NCBI GenBank assembly: GCA_002189035.1
Contig: NEEC01000019.1
Span: 1,178,001-1,242,000, forward strand
Source: Utricularia gibba
Taxonomy: Eukaryota; Streptophyta; Magnoliopsida; Lamiales; Lentibulariaceae
DNA length: 64,000 bases
Direction: 5' to 3'
The position numbers and the translations under genes are program-made. Positions 29,571 through 57,597 of this stretch are shown here, piece by piece (within the stretch, counting starts at the first letter, position 1; every line of letters begins with the position of its first letter). Under the pieces are notes generated by a model that was given only the letters and a program-made list of their open reading frames with translations, was not told the DNA's origin and ran no database searches.

Positions 29571-32526
29571 ATGAGGATGAGGCTGTCAAGGAGCCAGACC
29601 AAGAGAACAGGAGATTATCTAAAGGGAATGATAAGTGATTACTACTTCATGCAGGGGAAGCCGAAGACCAAGACTCACAAGGGAGGGGAATCATGCAGAA
29701 ACGTGCCTTTTCTGACATGTCTGCAGTTCATGTTTGCTGTGTATGCAACCTCCCTCTTGCTGTACATGAGCCCATCTATTGATTTCAGAGGATGGGTGGC
29801 AGAGCATGTCCACAGCTTCATCTCCATGGCGCCTCATTCAGTGAGTCGAATCCAGGAAACGGTGCCGCCTACGGCTGACACAGCGATGGAGACGGCTTGT
29901 GTGCATGAGAAGATCGATTTTGAGCAGAAGAAGTCGAATGATAGTGTGACTATCAGGTTGAAGAAGGAGCTATACAGAGAGGTGCTTGATTTCCAGAGCA
30001 GGGCTTTTGGGACAGAGACTCTGCCCCAGTTGATGTCCATGGAATCAAAATGGAGCTTAAAGGGGCAAAATCTTCCTAGAGTCACCGTGATACTGAATCA
30101 TTTCAAGCGAAAGACGCTTTGTGCGCAGATTGATTCTCTTCTTGAACAAACGCTTCCTTTTCACCATGTTTGGGTTGTTTCTTTTGGGAGTCCAATTGAA
30201 ACATCCCTGAAGAAGATTGTGGAGAGCTATAACAATTCCAGAATTAGTTTCATTAGCTCCAGCTATGACTTCAAGTACTACGGTAGATTTCAAATGGCTC
30301 TGCAGACAGAAGCTGATCTTGTGTACATTCTTGATGATGATATGATTCCAGGAAAGAAGATGCTAGAGATTCTATCGCATGTTGCTGGGACCGAAAAGTA
30401 TAGAAATGCTGTTTTGGGGAGCATTGGAAGGATCTTACCCTTCAAACAAAAAGACTTCACCTTTCCAAGTTACAGGAAGTTTAGATCAAAGGAAGCAGGC
30501 TTGTATTTGCCAGATCCAGCTTATGATATCACTGTTGACAGAGTTGTTAAAGTTGATTTTCTCTCTAGCTCCTGGTTTTTATCATCTGAGCTGATCAAAA
30601 CTCTTTTCATTGAGACCCCATTCACGTTTATGACAGGAGAAGATCTTCATTTAAGGTATGCAACCAAGATGCATTAGTTATTGGAGCTACACTAAATTCG
30701 AACCTGATGACTTGAGTTTGACAATTCCTGTGCAGTTATCAGCTTCAGAAGTATCGAGATGCAGGCTCTTATGTGCTACCTGCTGATCCATATGACAAAG
30801 AAACATGGGGAGACAGTGAGCATAGATTGGCGTATGTATCAGAAACAACAGTGATCTTCAAAGATATTGTCCAAGTGAGAGATGACCAATGGTGGAAAGC
30901 TCTGTCAACAGGATATGTAACACAGTGGGCTTCCATGTATCCACAGAAGATCGATGCTCTATTTTATGCACACTCTCTGGACGAAGTTCAAGCACTGGCT
31001 CCTCTTATTAACAAGTTTAGGACAACAACTGGTAAGAAAGCCTATCTGGTTGTCTCTGGTGGCAAGTTCTGCCCATGTGAAGATGCAGCCCCCATCTTGA
31101 AATGGCCTAAATCTGTCTGTAAGGAGAGAAGGTTCAAGGTCCTTGATCTAGGAATCAATTCGTTGTCTGGAATATCAAATTCAGATGTGCCTATTTTTCA
31201 AGCCATCTATGCTAGTATGAAAGGGATAATCAAAATCCACAATCCAAGCGTGGTGATCTCCGTCTCTAATATCAATCTGAATGTCAGAAAAGCATTGATG
31301 CTGGCCATAGAAACCAACACAAATGGCACAACATTGGTTCTCTTGCCAAGAGAATCCATTTCCAAGTCTCTATGGATGACTGATCTTCGCTCTACAGCTT
31401 TACCTTGTAAGAACTCTCATCTCCTCTTTTCCTATTCAGATACTTAAAAGTCCTGAAATTAAAATTTCTTCTGACTCATTTCTTTGTTCTGCAAACAAAA
31501 AACTCAGACTGGAACAGGATGAAACTTTGTATCAACATCATAACACAAAACCGGGCTCCTTCTCTCTCAAGGCTGCTAAACTCCCTGAAAGATGCTTACT
31601 ATTTGGGAGATAGAATTCCCATAACCTTCAATATGGATAGCAAGGTAGATGAACCAACTCTGCAGCTTGTGAAGTCATTCGAATGGACACATGGGCCGAA
31701 GATCATTCGCAGAAGGATAATCCAGGGTGGCTTGATTCGAGCCGTCAGTGAAAGTTGGTTTCCATCCTCAGATGATGATTTTGGGTTGCTCTTAGAAGAT
31801 GACATAGAGGTCTCTCCTTTCTACTATCTCTGGATCAAATATGCTATCTTAGCGTATCACTATGATCCCAAAGTTTCACTTCCAGAGCTCAGCTCCATCT
31901 CACTCTACACACCACGTTTGGTTGAAGTGGTGAAGGAAAGGCCAAAATGGAATGCTACAGATTTCTTCAAACGCATACACCCAAATACCCCTTATCTTCA
32001 CCAACTTCCCTGCAGTTGGGGAGCAGTATTTTTCCCGAAACATTGGAGAGAATTCTATGCTTACATGAACATGCGCTTCACAGAGAATGCAAAAGAGAAT
32101 CCAGTTCAAATTCCCAAATCAAGAACCAATGGCTGGCAAGCTTCTTGGAAGAAATTTTTAATAGACATGATGTACCTTCGTGGGTATGTGAGCCTTTACC
32201 CTAATTTTCCGAATCAAACAAGTTTTTCCACGAATCACATGGAACCAGGGGCGCATATCAGTGCGAAAGACAACGTCGTGCAGCATAATAAGACGGATTT
32301 TGAGGTTCCGCTCATGAAACAAGACTTTACGAAGCTTTTGCCGAATGGTAAACTCCCGCCAGCTTCAAAGATACCGTCTTTGAATCTCTTTAACCGCGCT
32401 GTATCGCTAAAGGGTCTGAAGGCTGCGGGTGCGAAACTGGGTAAAGATGTTCTTGAATGTGAGGCGAATCAGATTGTGGTGGTAAACCATGAAACTGGTT
32501 TGCCTTCACATTGTGCTGCATTCTGA
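29571..32526 (+). CDS. Plant GT2-like type II membrane glycosyltransferase with two GT-A-like domains
   Basis: Three exons (29571..30655, 30736..31406, 31508..32526) give 924 residues. A short basic cytosolic tail and one membrane segment (about residues 45-67) predict a Golgi or ER type II protein. The first GT-A-like domain starts near residue 178 with LPRVTVILNHFKR and has the DXD-type motif ILDDDM. A linker region containing NINLNVRKALMLAIE leads to a second domain from about residue 588, opening with LCINIITQNRAPSLSRLL and carrying a second acidic motif, LLEDDIEVSPFYYLW. It resembles the uncharacterised plant 'glycosyltransferase family 2' proteins; donor and acceptor are unknown. The start at 29571 is the first ATG in this frame; an upstream ATG at 29563 opens a three-codon uORF overlapping it. 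Confidence 0.88.
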
Positions 32527-41652: not shown

Positions 41653-43738
41653 ATGGTGGAGAGTGATAAAAGTGTTGATACAGAGCTGTGGCATGCGTGC
41701 GCCGGCGGAACTGTTGAGATTCCGACGGTGAATACGCAAGTTTTTTACTTTCCGCAGGGACACGCCGAGCACGCGCTCGCGCCTGTTGATTTTGGGTCTT
41801 TGGGGAGAATCCCACCTTTGATTCTTTGTAGAGTCGCTTATGTTAAGTATTTAGCTGATCCTGAGACAGACGAAGTTTACGCGAAAACGGGGTTGATTCC
41901 ATTGAAGAGCAATGAGTTTGTTGGTTTTGACGATGAGAATAAAATGTGCGAGTCCAGCGAAAAACCCATGTCTTTGGCTAAGACATTGACTCAGTCTGAT
42001 GCAAACAATGGCGGGGGATTCTCGGTTCCTCGTTACTGTGCGGAGACGATTTTTCCGCCGTTGGATTACGGTGCTGACCCACCGGTTCAGAACTTGATTG
42101 CTAGAGACATTCATGGAGATACCTGGAAGTTCAGGCATATTTACAGAGGAACACCGAGGAGGCACCTTTTGACTACTGGATGGAGTACTTTTGTCAACCA
42201 TAAGAAGCTTGTAGCTGGGGATTCGATCGTGTTCTTACAGGCTGAGAACGGAGATCTTTGCGTCGGCATCAGGCGGGCGAAAAGGGAGTGCGGGACTTCA
42301 ACCCTTTGGAATTATGCTGCTGCAAACTATGGCGATGAAAATAAGCTGATGCAAACAAGTGTCTGTGGTGGTGGTAGGACCAGGGTGAGACCAGAAGCAG
42401 TTGTTGAGGCTGCCTTCCTGGCGGCCAATGGCCACCCTTTTGAGGTTGTGTATTATCCTCGTGCCGGAACTCCGGAGTTCTGTGTCAAAGCGTCGTCTGT
42501 GAGGGAAGCCATGCGAATACAATGGTGCCCCGGGATGAGGTTCAAAATGGCTTTCGAAAACGAAGATTCTTCTAGGATAAGCTGGTTTATGGGCACTGTG
42601 GCTGCTGTCCAGTTCTATGATCCGCAACGCTGGCCTGGTTCTCCATGGAGACTACTTCAGGTAAATCTCACAATCTACAATTAGCGAGTAAGTAGCTCAT
42701 CAGCCGCTTCTTGTGACATTATGTGTTTGCCTGTCTTCAGGTTATCTGGGACGAGCCTGATTTACTACAAAATGTCAAGTCTGTGAGCCCTTGGCTTGTT
42801 GAAATGGTTTCAAGCATCCCTCTTGTTTCCATCTCCCCCATGTCATCTCCAAGGAAGAAGCTGCGGTTTCCTCATCCGATGGACCTTTCTGTGAACGGCC
42901 GATTTCCGATACCATCGTTTTTAGGCAATCCCCTCCGGCCAAGCAGTTCTTTATGCTGTTTACGGGACAATTTTACTGCAGGCATACAGGGAGCCAGGCA
43001 ATATAATCTTGGACTTGGAGTACCATTTTCAGATCTCCGCATTAGCAATGAAATGCAGATGGAGTTATTACCCTCTAGTTTCCCAAGACATGACGTGGTT
43101 AACATCAAGACGAGCTGCATCACAGACAATGATGAGGACATATCTTGCTTGTTGAGCATGGGCCGTAACACCAGTGAATCAAAATCAGAGAAAAGGGATG
43201 ATGGAGCAAGGACTCCTTCCTTTATCCTGTTCGGTCAGCGGATACACACAGAGCAGCAGTTGTCTCAGGATCAGCAGTCCAGTGAATCATTTTCTCCCTC
43301 ACTAGAAAGAACCTCCTCCTGCGGGGCACCATGGAAACAGGATGCTGCTGACCTTGCTTCCCATCCTGCTGGCATCTGCAAAGTCTACCTGGGCTCGGAA
43401 GACATCGGGCGGACCCTCTACCTATCTGACCTCGGATCATACGAGGACCTGTACAAAAGACTAGAGCACATGTTTGAGATAGAGAGATCTGAGATCATAG
43501 GCTCTCTGTTGTACGACAATGCAACCGGTGCTTCGAAGCAAGTGGTGGAAGAAGAACCATTCAGGTGAAAACATAGCAACATGCTGTCACTAGTTTCTTC
43601 TGAAGAAGTTTACAATTACATGTTCTTTTAGTATTGATGCACCCTTTGAAACATTGCTTCTGCAGTGAGTTCGTCAGATCAGCTAAAAGGTTGATAGTTC
43701 AGGCGAAGACTGGTTGCTCGGTGAAGCTCGGCTTGTAA
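41653..43738 (+). CDS. ARF16: Auxin response factor, ARF10/16/17 clade (miR160-regulated)
   Basis: Three exons (41653..42660, 42741..43564, 43666..43738) encode 634 residues. The N-terminus (SVDTELWHACAGGTVEIPTV) is the flanking dimerisation region. The B3 DNA-binding domain follows at about residues 110-220 (KTLTQSDANNGGGFSVPRYC, GDTWKFRHIYRGTPRRHLLT, GWSTFVNHKKLVAGDSIVF). The ARF ancillary domain has AFEVVYYPRAG-like EVVYYPRAGTPEFCVKAS and SSRISWFMGTV. The middle region is not Gln-rich, as expected for repressor ARFs. A PB1-type C-terminus remains (GICKVYLGSEDIGRTLYL onward) and spans the last intron. The miR160 site and its IQGARQ peptide place it in the ARF10/16/17 clade; the ARF16/10 choice over ARF17 rests on the presence of the PB1 region. 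The ATG at 41653 matches MVESDKS starts in relatives. Confidence 0.95.
42980..43000 (+). promoter_or_regulatory. miR160 target site in the ARF mRNA
   Basis: The 21-base site contains GGCATACAGGGAGCCAGGCA, the exact complement of positions 1-20 of miR160; only the base facing miRNA position 21 differs. It codes for part of GIQGARQ, conserved in ARF10, ARF16 and ARF17. Cleavage by miR160 is well established for these genes. Confidence 0.95.
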
Positions 43739-45816: not shown

Positions 45817-46419
45817 TGGAAGGGTAGAGGTCAGTTTTCAGTTCTTCTCTTGTTCCAACACTGCATAGAAAGACCTTGAGAATGCAGTAGTTTTCCACAG
45901 CTCCTCTCTATGTTTTTTCCCTGTATTTTTTATGTGAATGTGATGATGATGATGATGTTTCCATACCTGATTATATTGCATCAAATTCTGAAGGCTTCTG
46001 CAGTATAGATATCAAGAGTCCACTAGTGACATTGGAATCCATTTGCATCCGGGAAGAAGGGCATGTTGTACGGGAGAGGAAGATGCATGTGTGTGTCCGG
46101 AAAAAGCTGTCACAGGACAAGAGGGCGGCAGTTATTCTCAGTAAATACAGTTCACTGTATTCTACATGTTTAAAAAGATAGCGAATTTTATGGATTCAAT
46201 GTATGAGTTGGCCGCCGGCGAAGGCGCCAAACACCGTCCTATGCCTTCTTCAACCTCTGACTTCATGCTGCGCACCTCGCGCAATTTGAATCATTGGCTG
46301 CTTTTATATGTCTCCCATGTCCATGGTGGAGGTTGCAGTCGAGTTCAGAATATAGAATCTGGGGGACTTTGTTTGGTTTTGATTGGCCGTGGGATCGGGG
46401 ATCTCGGCCGTGGAAGGTC
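45817..46419. other. Intergenic: CASP-like 3' flank and leader of the repeat protein gene
   Basis: A GAT/TGA trinucleotide run lies at about 45940-45957. The frame of the next gene is open upstream to 46294 without an ATG, so the leader is partly free of stops by chance. No RNA gene or other signal seen. Confidence 0.45.
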
Positions 46420-47427
46420 ATGATGATGGTTAACGTTGATCGGAATCTTGGGTCAGCCGTGGCTTTCATTTTCCTGGTCTTTGCGGTGCCGGGTTTTTCT
46501 GAAGATTTCGATGTCCCTGTTCGGAAGCCTGCGCTGGCTTCGGTTTGGGAATCAGTGGAATCTGAATCGTCTCTGCCGTCGCTTCCGAACTTCGATCCTT
46601 TTCTGACCGCTGACTCGCCAGAATCGAACGCGCCATCCCCGGCTCCGTCAGGTGACGAAGAGATTCGGGTTCAAGTCCCTGAAAACGAGGTTCCTGGCTC
46701 TTCTCATGCGCTGGCTCCGCTGGTGGAATCAGTGGAATCTGAATCGTCTCTGCCGTCGCTTGCGATCTCCGATCCATTTCTGACAGCTGACTCGCCAGAA
46801 TCGAACGCGCCATCCCCGGACCCGTCAGGCGACGAAGAGATTCGGGTTCAAGCCCCATTGGTTGAAAACGAGGTTCCTAGCCCTTCTCAGGAAGACGACA
46901 GAGACCTTGCAAAATCCCCGCAGAACGACGGCGAAAACGAGGTTCCTAGCCCTTCTCAGGAAGATGACAGAGACCTTGAAAAATCCCCGCAGGACGACGG
47001 CGAAAAGGAGTCTTCCGGGCCTTCTCGGGGAGACGACGGAGACCATGAATCCCAGCAGAGCGACGGCGAAAAGAAGTCTTCTGGGCCTTCTCAGGAAGAC
47101 GACAGAGACCTTGAAAAATCCCCGCGGGACGACGGCGAAAAGAAGTCTTCTGAGCCTTCTCCAACAGACGAGGAACCGCTGCAGAACGTCGTTCATGCAG
47201 AGGCTCCATACACTTTACCACCACTACTTGAAGAGTGGTTCACGAGCAAGAGTCCGAGTGTCGAGAACAGCGACGGCCAACATGGCGGCGGGAGAAATGC
47301 TGCAGTGGCGCTCGGAGTCATCGGCGCGGGGTGCTTACTCGGCGCCACCGCATTTGTATACAAAAAACGGCGGGAGAGACTACGGCAGTCCCAGTTTGGG
47401 TACCGCGGCAGCATTGAAATGCTATAA
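46420..47427 (+). CDS. Acidic, repeat-rich type I membrane protein, uncharacterised
   Basis: One exon encodes 335 residues, starting at the first of three adjacent ATGs (46420, 46423, 46426). A signal peptide (LGSAVAFIFLVFAVPGFS, near residues 8-25) is followed by a Ser/Pro/Glu/Asp-rich outer region made of two repeat types: two copies of a 59-residue unit containing ESVESESSLPSLP and SPESNAPSP, then about five copies of a 22-23-residue unit, e.g. ENEVPSPSQEDDRDL. A single membrane helix (AAVALGVIGAGCLLGATAFV) near the end precedes a short basic cytosolic tail (KKRRERLRQ) ending GYRGSIEML. The layout suggests a wall- or surface-exposed protein anchored in the plasma membrane. I do not recognise a named family. 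Codon use looks normal, but the repeats make neighbouring frames artificially open. Confidence 0.75.
   Translation: MMMVNVDRNLGSAVAFIFLVFAVPGFSEDFDVPVRKPALASVWESVESESSLPSLPNFDPFLTADSPESNAPSPAPSGDEEIRVQVPENEVPGSSHALAPLVESVESESSLPSLAISDPFLTADSPESNAPSPDPSGDEEIRVQAPLVENEVPSPSQEDDRDLAKSPQNDGENEVPSPSQEDDRDLEKSPQDDGEKESSGPSRGDDGDHESQQSDGEKKSSGPSQEDDRDLEKSPRDDGEKKSSEPSPTDEEPLQNVVHAEAPYTLPPLLEEWFTSKSPSVENSDGQHGGGRNAAVALGVIGAGCLLGATAFVYKKRRERLRQSQFGYRGSIEML
46549..46863 (+). repeat. 177-bp coding tandem duplication
   Basis: The segment starting GAATCAGTGGAATCTGAATC at 46549 recurs at 46726, an offset of 177 bp or 59 codons. The two copies differ at scattered single bases, and the second is cut short where the 69-bp array begins. 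The duplication keeps the reading frame. Confidence 0.85.
46864..47163 (+). repeat. 69-bp coding minisatellite, about 4.3 units
   Basis: Unit starts (GAAAA[C/G]) fall at 46864, 46933, 47002, 47068 and 47137, so spacing is 69, 69, 66 and 69 bp; one unit has lost a single codon. Units encode 22-23 residues around PSQEDDRDLEKSP. All length changes are multiples of three. Confidence 0.9.
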
Positions 47428-47710: not shown

Positions 47711-50700
47711 TCACTCCTCCGCCGGAGGATCAACCCACCGCCCGTGCTCCTTGATCAGCTCAATCAACGCATCCGTCGCGTGTTCCATTGCTATGCCTCG
47801 TTTCACCACCGTCTGATCGGAAAACAAGGAGACTGATTGAAACACAGATGACGACAAAGATTGCAGGCAGCTTTTTAGTTGGGAAAAGAAAGGGGTACCT
47901 TGCCAACGTAGAGGTCGATTTTTCCAGGTGCCCCGCCAACATAACCGAAATCTGCGTCCGCCATTTCACCTGGTCCGTTCACGATGCAACCCATGATGGC
48001 GATCTGCATGATGCATCAGGGAAGGCGGACGACGGTGATGCCTCGGGATTGCCTTGAAATTCACTACTAGTGTAGAGTAAAAAGTGCAGAGATTACCGAA
48101 ACACCCGGTAGGTGGGATGTCTTCTCCCTGATTTGTGCACTGATCTCTTGAAGATCGAACAACGTTCTTCCGCAGGAGGGGCAGGATACGTATTCCTGGT
48201 ACCATTGGAGTGGAAGGATTCATGCAGACATCTCATGATAAGACTGCTTCTTTTGTGAGTATGTTGACTTACTGTCTTTGTGTTCCGCATTCTGCAACCT
48301 TGCAGCAAGTTGAAAGAAGTATTCCTGAGGAACTCAAATTCCTGATCCTCAGCTTCGAGTAGGATACCATCTCCCAGACCATCGACCAGCAGGGCTCCGG
48401 CATTTGCTCCCGCACCAATGACCAAGTCATCCCTGCGCAAGAAGAAAAGATAAAAAAAAAATGGACCTTGGCTGATGGTAACTAACTTTTCTTTGTTTTC
48501 ATGTACCTGTGTGTATCTCTTGGGAACTGTATGTGATGGATTACAGGAAAGTTCAATGAGTGCTCTGTGAGATATTCGAAAATCCTGCAACCGCAATTGC
48601 ATAATGGCTTGTAATAGAAAGCAGATTGTTCTTGAGAAAGTTTATGAAACGGAGAAAGTAGTAGTACCTTCTAGCAGCATGAACTCTGCTAACATTCGTT
48701 TCAGTATACGGTAAATTGTGAAGAATCATAGTAGCATCAATAGTCTTAAGAATATCGAGCTCCTCCGTAGGTTCATCACCACGAACCGATACAACCAGAC
48801 GGGTGCCTGAGCAACAAAAACAAGCTTTTTCAAAATCATCCAGAAAACGAGAAGGGAATGTTTTAAAGAAAAAGTTTTGTACCCTCTGGAAGAAGCTTCG
48901 AGGCACCAGATGAGAGTTCCTTGGGAGTCACCAAAACCATAGCATTTGGAAGTGGCTTCGTCAACTGCTCTGATAAAGGAGCTATAACTCCCATGCTAAC
49001 ATCTATCAGCCGCTTAAGAGCTAGATGCTGAAAATAACAAGGACCATGAACTTGTCGGATGAGGACGATGTTATGGAGTTCAAAGGAGAGCGAAGAGCTC
49101 TTACAGCATCTTTATCATCTTGTGCTGGAAGTTCTCTCAACAAGATTGAGTCAACTGTTGCCAGATCCTGCATCGATTGCATTGGTATTTTGTTATGGTA
49201 TGAAAATGGGAAACGAGCTTGATGGGGTGACTTTCCTGTATACCTTGAAAGGCATTCCAACGATGAGCTTGGCTGCTAAAGACTTATATAGAAGCTCTGG
49301 TGCCTATAAAACCAGGAGAGCAGTGAAAATCACTAAATGAATGGTATCTTGTATGATGAGAAAAAAACAAAACTTTGAGAACAAAGTATATAAAAGGTGG
49401 GGAGGGATATGCTACACCTTCAGTTGATCCAGAGTAACTGACATAAGAACTGAACCATCACGATGCAGTACACCTCGATAATCAACTTCTTCACCCTGTA
49501 TCAGGGAAATCAAGAGTCGACTATATCCCAAACACTACAGAGGAAAAAGTTGTAACACATTTGTCAAAAATCAAGTTCAAACCTCCTTTTGAACTGGCAA
49601 TTGACCAGTTCTTCTCTGGAAATCGAAATATCTCCTGTTTTTCTCCTCAAAAGGTGTCTGTAAATTTGCATGTGTAAATCAACGGGACCAAGTTTAAACA
49701 AAAGAATAGTGTCGCAAAGTATATATCTACACCAAGCCATACCACTCCCTTTTGAAGCTCAGCTGCTTTCATCCCAAGGTTAGCCAATCTCCTACATGGA
49801 TCAATTTCTTCCTCTGGAGGTTCGGTGAGAGAAACTCGAATTGTATCACCAAGACCATCCTATTAAAAGTGCATGAAGCTCCATGGTTCAGCTAAATAGC
49901 TCGTCGAAGTTTGAAATCCATGATGTGAATGAAAATGCATGTAATAAAAGTCGATAGAAGAAACTGTTTAGTATAATGTCTTGTTCTGTAATGCCAGATT
50001 TTGATTCAAGGCTCATGAAATAAATAACCACATATAATGAAATCTAAAGTCAGCTTTAGATGTAGGAAAATAAAAGACCTGATACTGATTTTTGTCGAGA
50101 ACATACCATGAGAAGAGTCCCGATTCCAATTGCAGATTTCATCCGCCCATCTTCACCCTCACCAGCTTCAGTCACACCCAAGTGTAGAGGATAGTCCCAT
50201 CCAAGAACATTCATTTCCGCTACTAACAGACGATAGGCTTGGACCATGATAACAGGGTTGCTGGCTTTCATTGAAAAGACAAAGTTGTGGAAATCCAGTT
50301 TCCGGCAAATCCTTGCATACTCAAATGCAGATTCAACCTAACAAGTAGTCAAACATTTATTATCTTCGCATACAGAATAAAAAGCAAGTTTGATTATAGA
50401 AAGATGATGCTTTTGTTGTAGTGTTGGACATCCAAAACTCACCATTCCACGAGGCGAGTCACCATAGTAGCTCATAATACGGTCAGAAAGGCTACCGTGA
50501 TTTGTACCAATACGAATTGCACGTCCATACTTTTTGCACTTCTCAACCAATGGGGTGAAGACCTATCCAAAAATGAAAAATTTTAATTAAACAAGGCTAC
50601 TTCAGAAGCAAAGCTTGCATCAACTTATCAGGGCGATGAACAGAAATCAGAGAAGGAAGGTTCCAAAATCTGACCTTCTCAATATGCTCAAGTTCCTTCT

Positions 50701-51791
50701 GATAATCATCTTCAGTGTACTCCAGCTTCTCAAATTGAGCTCTCCGATCGGCTGGAAAGTGTTCATTATTCAGATATTCAACTAGATCAATACACCCGAG
50801 GCCAAGTTTAATTCAGGGGTGAAAGTGATTACCAAAGTTTCCAGGGTTGACACGAATCTTCTCAAAGCATTCAGCTACTCGAAGTGCAATAGGAGGTGCA
50901 AAATGAATATCAGCCACCAAGGGGATGTTATAGCTGCAATATCAAAATAGCATAACTCCATTTGCTAATGTCAATGAGTACAAATGGTTGAATACAGACA
51001 TACTTCTTCTGAACAAGAGAATCTTTAATTTCGAAACAAGCGTCTGCTTCTTTCTTTCCTTGCACAGTTATTCTCACTATATCCGCTCCTTGATCTGCAA
51101 TTCTCATCACCTAAAACGTAACAATGACCGTCAAAAAGCTAAACTAACCATCAATATAATTGAATACTTAAAATTAAACATGACTAAAATAATCTCAAGG
51201 CCACACAAAGACCTGTTCTACAGTCGCCGCAACATCCTTTGTATCAGTTGTGGTCATCGTTTGAATTCTGATCGGGTGATCACTACCAAGAGCGACATTG
51301 CCTATCATTACGGTCGAGGTTTTTCTCCTGACAGTTTTGTATATGGATTCACAGTACTTCTGCCGGGGAACTACGTCCAAAAAATTATTGGATAACAGAT
51401 TGCGCAAGTTTGAAAATATGCAACTCAAAAAGCCTATGAGTGTCGTCATTTTTTGCAGTTTAACACCCTATAACACCGAAGCTTCTAGGAAAGAACAAGC
51501 AACTGTTGAATGCCGAAAACTTCTCTAACGATCAAAACATCAGGAAACTCGAATTCGAAAACTGAAAACGAAGATAAAATTTACCCAATAATGGACTTCC
51601 TGCTGATGCAGGCTCAAGTTCAACCGTCTCCGAGCCTGAGGAGTTCCTTACCACGAGAACCTTCCTTCTGTGAAACTTGACCCTTGGCAGTTCAGAGGCC
51701 CTTAAAGCTTCGGGAGTTTCGAAAAACCAATTCGCTGATGATCCCGGCTTTGGACACCACTGAAGGGTGCTGAAACAGTTCCAGTTGCCAT
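47711..51791 (-). CDS. HDS: 4-hydroxy-3-methylbut-2-enyl diphosphate synthase, plastid (IspG/GcpE); apparent 1-nt frameshift
   Basis: Nineteen minus-strand exons: 51791..51585, 51370..51213, 51110..51004, 50933..50833, 50751..50675, 50562..50443, 50337..50107, 49859..49743, 49657..49583, 49495..49418, 49303..49244, 49167..49105, 49027..48883, 48806..48668, 48584..48507, 48432..48273, 48195..48097, 48003..47899, 47812..47711. HDS makes HMBPP in the plastid MEP pathway for isoprenoids. Seen are [38 protein letters not shown], the plant-specific middle insert, and the iron-sulphur region with [17 protein letters not shown] and GCIVNGPGE. Exons 2-19 are intact. The start [14 protein letters not shown] matches plant HDS, but exon 1 changes frame near base 51720: the coding sum is 2222 nt, one short of 2223 (740 residues). 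The shift lies in the transit peptide beside a five-T run. Assembly error is more likely than loss of an essential gene. Confidence 0.95.
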
Positions 51792-52875
51792 CATCAACAC
51801 CAGGAAGCCTCCAACTTCAATCTGATAAGCCTTAAAAGGATAAATTAGCCGATTCACAGAAGATACCCATTAAGATCACAGCTTAAATCCTACAGAATTT
51901 AGAAGAATTACACCAAGTCATGCTCATCCCACCAAATTCAACCGACCCAGATAGAGAAACAAGTAGGCATCATAATTATTTTTCGAAAGAGTCGAGCTTC
52001 AATTATGAGCAAAAAGGAAATGTTGTTGAATCCCAGCAACGACACCTGAAACTCGAACAGGAGCAAAAAGGGCTGGGTACTTACTCAGAGCTGGATACAC
52101 CCCTGAACGCGAAGTGAAGAAAACTAGTGGACGGGAATGAGAGCAATGAAATTCAGACCCAGAATTTAAGATTTAAGATTGAGAAGGGAAATCCCTGACT
52201 CCCAAGTGTGATAGACAACTTTATCCGGCAACGCCTAGGCCAGCTCATTTGCCGGTATTAGTAGGCTCAAGTAACTGCACACATCCGGATCAGGCATAGT
52301 TGCTTCCTAAGCTTTGTGTTCGATCAGAATATTCCGCCACAGCCGCACGAGGCTCGTGTGCCACTCCAGTCAATTGAGAAACACAAAATTGTAATAAAAA
52401 TTCCAGGAATTCTTTATTGTCCTCGAGGCGCATGAGCATAGCGCATCGACCTTGCCCCCCGCTGTCCGTATTCTAAGATGTCATTTCACAGGAGCTGCGT
52501 TTCCCAGAAAAAGGTGCACATTAAGCATTTGTTTATTAGAAATAAACTATATTTATATTAGGCATAAATAAAAGTTCATGAGTTAAATTCTATATAAACA
52601 TCACAGCACATTCTTTTTGTGTCAAAAAAAATATTTCTTTCATTAATATTACTAAATAAATACACAGATACAACAAAAACTCAAACACTTAAGAATCCAC
52701 AAGCTATTATATCTATTACAATAAGCAATTATCTCATGTCGAAACTAAGAAAAATGATAGAATTATTAATAATAACGAGGAGCACTTGACAAATAAATTT
52801 GCCCAAGTTTCTTTGGAAGAACCAACGTTTTGTAATATTTGCACCAGGATGAGATGAGTAGCAACTACCATTGCC
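51792..52875. other. Intergenic: HDS leader/promoter and 3' flank of the small gene
   Basis: The HDS leader probably includes an intron ending near 51823 (CTTATCAG on the minus strand). The region to about 52500 is the likely HDS promoter; no TATA box is obvious. From 52540 to 52730 the DNA is AT-rich and belongs to the 3' side of the small minus-strand gene. Confidence 0.45.
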
Positions 52876-53974: not shown

Positions 53975-55338
53975 CTATCTATCCTTGAGCGGCCGCTGAA
54001 AACCCAAGAACAAGATTCTCAGCAAAAACATAAGTATAAGAATGAATGCTGCTGCTGGTCAAGAGATCTCATGGATTGAAGCTCTGTATCTCAGAAGAGT
54101 AAAAGAACCGAAAGACTTACCCTTGGTCCGCGGTTGGCCGCTGCTGCCTGGGGCTGTCTGCTGGGAATGCCATCTGATTCTTGTATCATCTCAGAGCTAC
54201 TGAGCTTGTTGAACGTCTCTAGAGCTCTTGTAACAAATGGCCGGACGATGTTTGCCTCCATTGCGGACAAGTTTTTAAGCTGAAATTGTTAAGTGCCTCT
54301 CATGTGGTAATGCAGAACAGCAACAGCACCAGTTTTCATGTAATATGAAATGGGAGAATAGCGAAGAACCGACACCAGGAATTCTCAATTTCAGATCATG
54401 GCTTGGAATGAAAATCACAATGTCCTTCTTCCCTTGAGGGAGATGGAGTTGGAGCATTACCTTAAGAGCGTATGTACGATCCCTGGAGATGATCTCCAAC
54501 CCTGTGCCAATTTTGTGAAACCGTACGTCCTTGATGTCCTCAATAAGGGACTTTACCTATGGGGGCAGTTGTTTTAGCTCACATAAGCAAAAGGGCTCAT
54601 GGTGGGGTGAAGGGAATAAGCCGGCCAACGTACCATATATGTATCAGGAATGTCTTCCCCGGCGCTACATTGAAGAGAGCAGCCCCTTTACTACATCACA
54701 GAGTGGGAAAAAAAGAAATGTGTATTTACTTACTTATCAAATAGAAGGCGGGATACTTCTATGTAGTGAAATGGCAAAGACTGAAACTTTTCGGAGTTTC
54801 GTTCATCTTCCAGAACTTGTGTTAATTTAGCTGGAGAAAAGGGTAATCAAAATCATGGACTTTGGGTAGGTGAGAAGTTTAAAATGTTGAGATCAAGAAA
54901 TATAAACCTCAGTCAAGGCATTACTTTGAAAATCTTACCAACAGACATCCACTCAGGAGCTCTGATGGTGCATTTCCCTCTTTTCTTCAAGGCAACAGCC
55001 AACCAAAGCGGAACCTGAGCAGGCATCTGTGGCCTGAATGGACCAAAGTCCCCTACACATAGAATAGATAGTGGAAAATGCTTAAGAAGTCGGGGTGCAG
55101 GATAGTTTAAGCAGTAAAAGATACACCATGGGAATATCCGTACAGAGGTAAAGTTAAGGGCATCCATTCTCATATTAGGCACAATCTCAATCATTTCATC
55201 CTCAGCTACAAACTCAAGCTGCAAAATGGTTGCGTTTATGGTCAGTTTAACAGCTACAATAAGATTTCTCTGGAAATTCAAAAGGCATACCTCCGCCCCA
55301 GAAAACCCGCCTCCCTGGAGCTTAGATATGCCCTCCAT
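53975..55338 (-). CDS. PSF2: GINS complex subunit PSF2; apparent 1-nt deletion at a splice junction
   Basis: Eight minus-strand exons: 55338..55291, 55218..55144, 55052..54939, 54830..54734, 54664..54634, 54556..54461, 54279..54121 and 53995..53975, for about 213 residues. GINS (SLD5, PSF1-3) joins MCM2-7 and CDC45 in the replicative helicase. The family signature runs [55 protein letters not shown], then [32 protein letters not shown] and [15 protein letters not shown]; the tail is RGPRRPLKDR. Exons 2 and 3 do not join in frame: the donor after ACCTCT (GTACGG) leaves no spare base, but exon 3 needs one. The coding sum is 641 nt. One missing G would restore the expected S-G-D-F. A donor 25 bp further on would keep the frame but insert foreign residues. 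The start could also be 55374. Confidence 0.92.
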
Positions 55339-57597
55339 TTCCAATTTATCCCCTTCTCTAACAACGCTGTTCACCAGAGGATTGGATATCAGCGATACTT
55401 CTACAAGCAGAACAGCTAGATGTCTTATAAATCATTTCAGAGAAACTTAAAGCTAAGTAGCATTGCAGAGTTGACTACTGAGAACTTTCTCCAGTTTCCT
55501 CATAAGAAACTGGCTGTCATTTACATATCTCATCAATCAAATTACACAGCAGCCTCACACACGTTAAAGCTACGTCACTGGGTTGCCTATGCCGCAGAAT
55601 TCCTAACTTTATTTCCATTTTGGTTCAAACAAGTACACGCGCCAGAACAGGACTACAATTAAACCACTGCGATCGTCCCCGGAGTCTCATGTATTAGCAA
55701 AGGAACATCAACAGAATCAAAATCTTCTCGCATATTTAAAACAAGCATAGAATCTCTTGTAAAAAGCAGTCCTACCGGGCTAACGGCGGCGGCACGACAG
55801 TGGCTGCGGAGTCCCCTGGGCTGCCGATCGGAGGAACAAAAACGAAGCGATGAGGATTTGGGCTTTACCACTAAATAGGCCGAATTTACTACAGCTCAAG
55901 ACCCACACAGCCCATCCAGGAGCCGCTCATTTTCGGAAGTGGTAGGAGAGAAATCCTTGAATTCGGCAAGCAAGTCTCCACTTTCAGAGCGAAATAGCAC
56001 TTCCCCCCTAGAGTTTTCTGAACTCTCTGGGATAGATCGACGACCGTTATGGAGACAATACAAGCAATGGAGAAACCGATTTACACTTCCTTGACCAAGG
56101 TAAGTAAAGACGCCTCCAGAACTCCCACGGATTCTGTAAAAAGTTTGCCTTGATACCCATTTCCATTCAGAAGAAGAGGAGAATGCAGCCCGTCAGCAGG
56201 GAAAGCAGTCTTCTTGTTTATACGCCACGCTTACATAGGACCATATCATTAGGACATGGATTCGTTGGACGTAGTCCCATTCCATTACAAATTGTATAAG
56301 AAACACGTGCCGATTTTTCAAATACTTGTGAAACAGTGATGTAAAGCATCCGTACTGCTCCCTTAGTTCCAGAAAAACGGTGAAATGGCGTACGAGTATA
56401 TGATCCTCCGACACAGTGGCTATGCGAAATCAACAAAGTAAACACATTACGGCAAATCTCGATTTTGAAATTCTTGTTTCTGTCGCCGTTTTGTTTAAAT
56501 ACGGTCACGTATTTCGGTGAAAGAGCCGTTTTTTGCGTCTTGTTTTACTCTGAACCCATGTTGTCTGTTTCATCATCATGGGTTTGTCTTCATGTGGAGT
56601 ATCATTATTCCCCTTCACCCACTTCTTTGAAAAACCCACAAGAGCATCAACAGGGCTCACTCACACTCCTTCCCAAGAGCAATGGCTGGTTCCTCATTTT
56701 CTTCTCCACAATGTTTCAACTTCAGGTGCTTCTTTTAGCAAAAGATGGAGTTTTTGGTAAGCATTTTCTGTTTCTTCAGTGGTTGTTGCTCTATTCAAGT
56801 GTAACCTAAAAACTTCGCCATTTTCGTTTTTCAAAATGGGGATGGGTGGTGCATTTTCTGCTGTGGCTTCTTGTCTCTTTGCACACTCATCTGGTAAAAA
56901 GCAGTGTTTCTAAATGGATTGTTGTTTCACATCTGTGAAAAGCAACTTTTTTGAAAAGAACTGCATATCCCTCCTTCTCCAGCGCTTTCACCGTCCTTTT
57001 TTTTTTATTTCTGTTGAAAGATTCTGCTTCTTCAAAGACTGTAGAATTATGGGAGCTTTAATTTTGAAAAAGGGGGAATCTTGCTTGTCCGGCAACCTCC
57101 AAACACTCACCTAGAATTGCTTCTGGGATTCCTAGCATTATTGGCTTCCCTCTGCAGAGAATATCTTTTAAGTAAGCCATTAATTCCGGGGAGAATCCCT
57201 AGTTTGTAGGGGACTTTCTCTGTAAGTTCACGGCGGTTCTGAAGGTTTTTAGTTTACCGTCGAGCACCTCGTGACTGCATTTATTGTGAGTGGTCTTTTT
57301 TTTTTCAAAAAAACGTTCATAGCTGTTTTTCTCATATGGGGGGCGTGAGCAAATTTATATCTCTTCGTTATCTGTGTGTGACCACATACAACTGATGAAA
57401 GTGATTGTCTTTAATAATCCTTCAGATGTTTGTTGTGCATTAAACTGCATTGGATTCCGATGTTTTATTTCTATTTGCTTCCCTTTTGCTCTTCTGTCCT
57501 TGAGCTCTCTGGTGTTGCAGGAGTGAAAGCTTCCCTCTAAGCAGCTCCTGCTGAAGTACCCAAGAACCAGTTTTTACTATTCTGACAGTAGGGAGGT
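55339..57597. other. PSF2/ICR intergenic region and ICR 5' leader with long intron
   Basis: PSF2 (-) and ICR (+) diverge here. GGCC/GCCCA elements at about 55860-55920 suit a shared promoter. An ICR first exon probably ends at 56099, where AAG is followed by GTAAGTAAAG; the matching acceptor is GTTGCAG before GAGTGAAAGC at about 57521. That leader intron would be 1.4 kb, common for plant genes. ATGs at 56049 and 56067 in the first exon would give a short uORF. No protein gene is seen inside the intron. Confidence 0.45.

Follow-up and report, generated by a model that had tools for sequence, protein, structure and literature searches.

The window analysed was a stretch of 64,000 nucleotides of the Utricularia gibba genome (contig NEEC01000019.1). 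On its minus strand it contained a plant HDS (IspG/GcpE) gene at 51794-47711, which was rebuilt from the window sequence into 19 exons. All of the introns (18 of 18) were GT-AG. Exon 1 (51585-51794) carried the start ATG at 51791, the transit-peptide region and the donor GTAAAT, and was shared by two frames. A second ATG was located immediately upstream of the MATG start, at 51794. Exons 2 to 19 spanned 47711-51370 and formed a single open frame on the minus strand, with the stop TGA at 47711. Exons 2 to 5 were located at 51213-51370, 51004-51110, 50833-50933 and 50675-50751, and exons 6 to 9 at 50443-50562, 50107-50337, 49743-49859 and 49583-49657, with an ambiguous boundary between exons 8 and 9. 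Exons 10 to 13 occupied 49418-49495, 49244-49303, 49105-49167 and 48883-49027, exons 14 to 17 occupied 48668-48806, 48507-48584, 48273-48432 and 48097-48195, and exons 18 and 19 occupied 47899-48003 and 47711-47812, respectively. Besides a frame break in exon 1, no lesion (further stops or lost splice sites) was found in the 2.2 kb CDS and its 18 introns.

The HDS translation scored 477 bits against TIGR00612 (ispG_gcpE; cut-off 280), and the exons matched PF04551 above the cut-off. The translation also matched solved IspG structures, with its C-terminal part aligning to 3noy_A, and contained both motifs of the C-terminal [4Fe-4S] domain (one of them GCIVNGPGE) as well as the long plant-type insert. 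The sequence is best explained as a normal plastid HDS gene, functional and present in one copy, with a predicted function as 4-hydroxy-3-methylbut-2-en-1-yl diphosphate synthase of the MEP pathway. Two features were seen beside the gene. An exon of a PSF2 (GINS complex) gene, matched by PF25005, adjoined HDS at 54913-55374 on the minus strand, and an ORF at 46294-47427 was found downstream of HDS on the opposite, plus strand, with imperfect repeats PSQEDDRDLEKSPQDDGEK and a hydrophobic C-terminal stretch.

Frame break in exon 1

The initial annotation had described a plant-HDS-type N-terminus at the start of exon 1, in a frame that ended after about 29 codons, with the remainder of exon 1 and all 18 later exons in another frame and a coding sum of 2222 nt. 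All of this was reproduced in the rebuilt gene. The peptide MATG...SAPFSGV was found at the start, and its frame (ATG 51791) ran for exactly 29 codons before a TAA at 51704-51702. The enzyme frame was open from 51816 through what remains of exon 1 and on through exons 2 to 19, where it ended with the TGA at 47711. Counted from MATG, the coding sequence came to 2222 nt, a length with remainder 2 on division by three, one nucleotide too few for a whole number of codons. The frame from the transit-peptide start to the enzyme was not continuous, and the break was located in 51702-51726. Both halves of exon 1 resemble plant HDS.

The idea that a base had been miscounted in the window, or that wrong exons had been chosen and there is no shift at all, is barely credible. 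The ambiguous exon 8/9 boundary speaks for it to some extent, though either choice keeps the frame; the frame changes within exon 1, whatever splice sites are chosen, and this was confirmed on rebuilding, which rules out the miscount that the initial annotation had allowed for.

The candidate stretch for the missing base, TTTTTCGAAACTCCCGAAGCTTTAA in minus-strand letters (51702-51726), where the frame changes, contained runs of T5, A3 and C3. One unknown base inserted at any place in this stretch gave a gap-free N-terminus of 69 residues to SPLL. The restored N-terminus aligned without gaps to Arabidopsis HDS, a comparison that is a lead only. Against the same Arabidopsis N-terminus, insertion downstream of the T run (51702-51719) scored slightly above insertion in the T run; the placements at or near the A3 and C3 runs, or further downstream, were slightly better because most of them retained the GFSK residues. 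The five-T run at 51722-51726, next to which the shift had been placed earlier, is a possible site but not the favoured one. The missing base most likely lies somewhere in 51702-51726, and not necessarily in the T run.

The sequence could also be correct if the plant bypasses the shift, by splicing an upstream start to exon 1 beyond it, by initiating translation in the main frame or by ribosomal frameshifting, but this is very improbable. The main frame was open from 51816, and formal GT-AG introns joined an upstream ATG to it. A search for splice rescue within 1.2 kb upstream returned 213 formal combinations, none of which was convincing. The best of them used a donor at 51913 and an acceptor at 51769; the donor scored 3.7, under all 18 real HDS donors (4.3-9.0), and the intron would render the conserved MATG...SAPFSGV peptide non-coding. 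The earlier statement that no intron can explain the shift was too strong, since formal combinations exist, but the best of them has a weak donor and discards the MATG peptide. An in-frame upstream start, which the initial annotation had named as a way out, was not present: the main frame contained no ATG from the stop at 51816 to exon 2, and upstream of the conserved region it had neither an ATG nor a well-placed near-cognate start. Programmed frameshifting is not known from plant nuclear HDS. It is equally hard to believe that the deletion is real and fixed and that the sole HDS is made through an alternative first exon or recoding. HDS would then carry a new transit peptide.

Copy number and the MEP pathway

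The genome searched comprised 100.09 Mb in 516 contigs. One HDS locus was found by a search with exon 1 DNA and with the GcpE profile PF04551. A second full copy, for which the initial annotation had proposed to look, was found by neither method across the 100-Mb genome. HDR, MCS and DXR, three other enzymes of the pathway, had one locus each. A green plant is expected to be unable to do without HDS, and the same holds for a plant that retains the MEP pathway. It is biologically unlikely that HDS is dead or fixed as a null allele, because the gene has a single locus, DXR, MCS and HDR are retained and HDS is expected to be essential.

These results bear on a real one-base deletion, that is, a recent null allele or young HDS pseudogene in the sequenced clone, perhaps heterozygous with an intact allele that is unrepresented. 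The HDS sequence as given is frameshifted, as this reading requires, and the genome may contain truly disabled genes, an example being perhaps the HSP70 break described below. It is nevertheless unlikely, given that no second locus was found, that an enzyme expected to be essential would be lost, that 2.2 kb of CDS and 18 introns carry no other lesion and that the lesion is of the commonest error type of the assembly. Neither the further decay nor the intact second copy expected of a pseudogene was found in the gene or in the genome search. Among the papers searched, none reported directly on indels in the U. gibba assembly or on an HDS albino phenotype, and no other plant HDS sequences were found in their text.

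One-base losses in control gene families

Families with long or intronless coding regions were used as controls. In the GRAS family, which is mostly intronless, 46 loci showed 12 junctions of the one-base-deletion phase without room for an intron, against 2-3 of the opposite phase. About a quarter of the GRAS loci look frameshifted by one absent base. The losses fell at C or G runs within conserved motifs, at an RPGGPP-type motif in L014, L015 and L018 and elsewhere in L019 and L021. Losses at C or G runs were also found at the HPSVGAF and TGGF motifs of two UGT genes (L029 and L030) and at the APRGVPQ and TIPTKK motifs of two cytosolic-type HSP70 genes (L036 and L037). The residues expected at these motifs follow the known sequences of the families, and they are backed by the profile matches, which carry on in the shifted frame. 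That several paralogs show one and the same loss at a G/C-run motif (RPGGPP) points to sequencing bias, a systematic consensus error of the assembly, and not to independent gene death.

Otherwise intact control genes carried roughly one such frameshift for every 4-6 kb of coding sequence, a rough value from modest counts in G/C-rich families. The UGT genes were kept for single examples only and not for the rate, because the profile spans too small a part of each. Such a rate gives a chance of roughly 30-40% of at least one frameshift in a 2.2-kb CDS. At this rough rate, about one third of the genes as long as HDS may seem to carry a frameshift in this assembly, so reads or transcripts are needed before gene loss or pseudogenes are claimed from it.

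Some frameshifts in the U. gibba genome may be real. An HSP70 break around TTDGGGTM was common to two near-identical duplicated regions, L034 (C241) and L035 (C304:2235100-2244900), and this one may be a true lesion instead of a fault of the assembly. Direct evidence of consensus indels came from contigs C414 and C416: the final part of C414 (L024) and the first part of C416 (L026) were one sequence assembled twice and left unmerged, about 99% identical over 1157 columns. Several short indels separated the two copies, and one of these, a G, broke the GRAS frame in L026 (C416) only. These differences could in part be allelic, and the comparison overstates the general indel rate because contig ends have low coverage. 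Within the window, no obvious frameshift was seen in the neighbouring CDC48, GT2-type glycosyltransferase and ARF genes. Breaks at 30677-30773, 31447-31519 and 42684-42723 were considered as local errors and rejected, as they look like normal introns. The mitochondrial COX1 gene (L032, G000:C515) contained a contiguous double cysteine, LLLLCCSALVEVG, a motif known from Utricularia that fits U. gibba, and was interrupted by an intron-like ORF which by eye was of the LAGLIDADG type.

Probable consensus error and comparison with known systems

The HDS frameshift is very probably a consensus error and not a broken gene. The initial annotation had reported an apparent one-nucleotide deletion and left assembly error or pseudogene open; the deletion in the sequence was supported, and the control families favour consensus error, because the same signature often recurs across unrelated genes of the assembly that are otherwise intact (GRAS, UGT and HSP70). 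A single base would have been lost by the long-read assembly from a short homopolymer within the transit-peptide region of exon 1. In the plant itself, both halves of this exon would together encode a single transit peptide, continuous with the enzyme. We infer that the absent base is present in the plant. As biology, the frameshift is without importance.

In comparison with plastid HDS of plants, the U. gibba gene was alike in the whole enzyme, the exon structure and the N-terminal MATG...SAPFSGV start. With the frame restored, the length of the transit peptide (69 residues to SPLL) presumably equals that of Arabidopsis HDS. The gene was unlike plant HDS in that this assembly is without one base in the transit-peptide part of exon 1.

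A review describes the U. gibba assembly as built from PacBio reads alone by means of HGAP and Quiver, with a contig N50 of 3.4 Mb (PMC5793159), and gene-fragmenting frameshifts have been described for long-read assemblies (PMC12007338). The HDS site is A/T-rich with short runs (T5, A3 and C3), unlike the control cases with mostly G or C runs; this difference, together with the neighbouring genes that showed no obvious frameshift, was counted against a consensus error. The site was like the homopolymer-deletion consensus errors of long-read-only assemblies in the loss of a single base beside a short homopolymer with the exons otherwise intact, and such errors have a strong deletion bias, as in this assembly.
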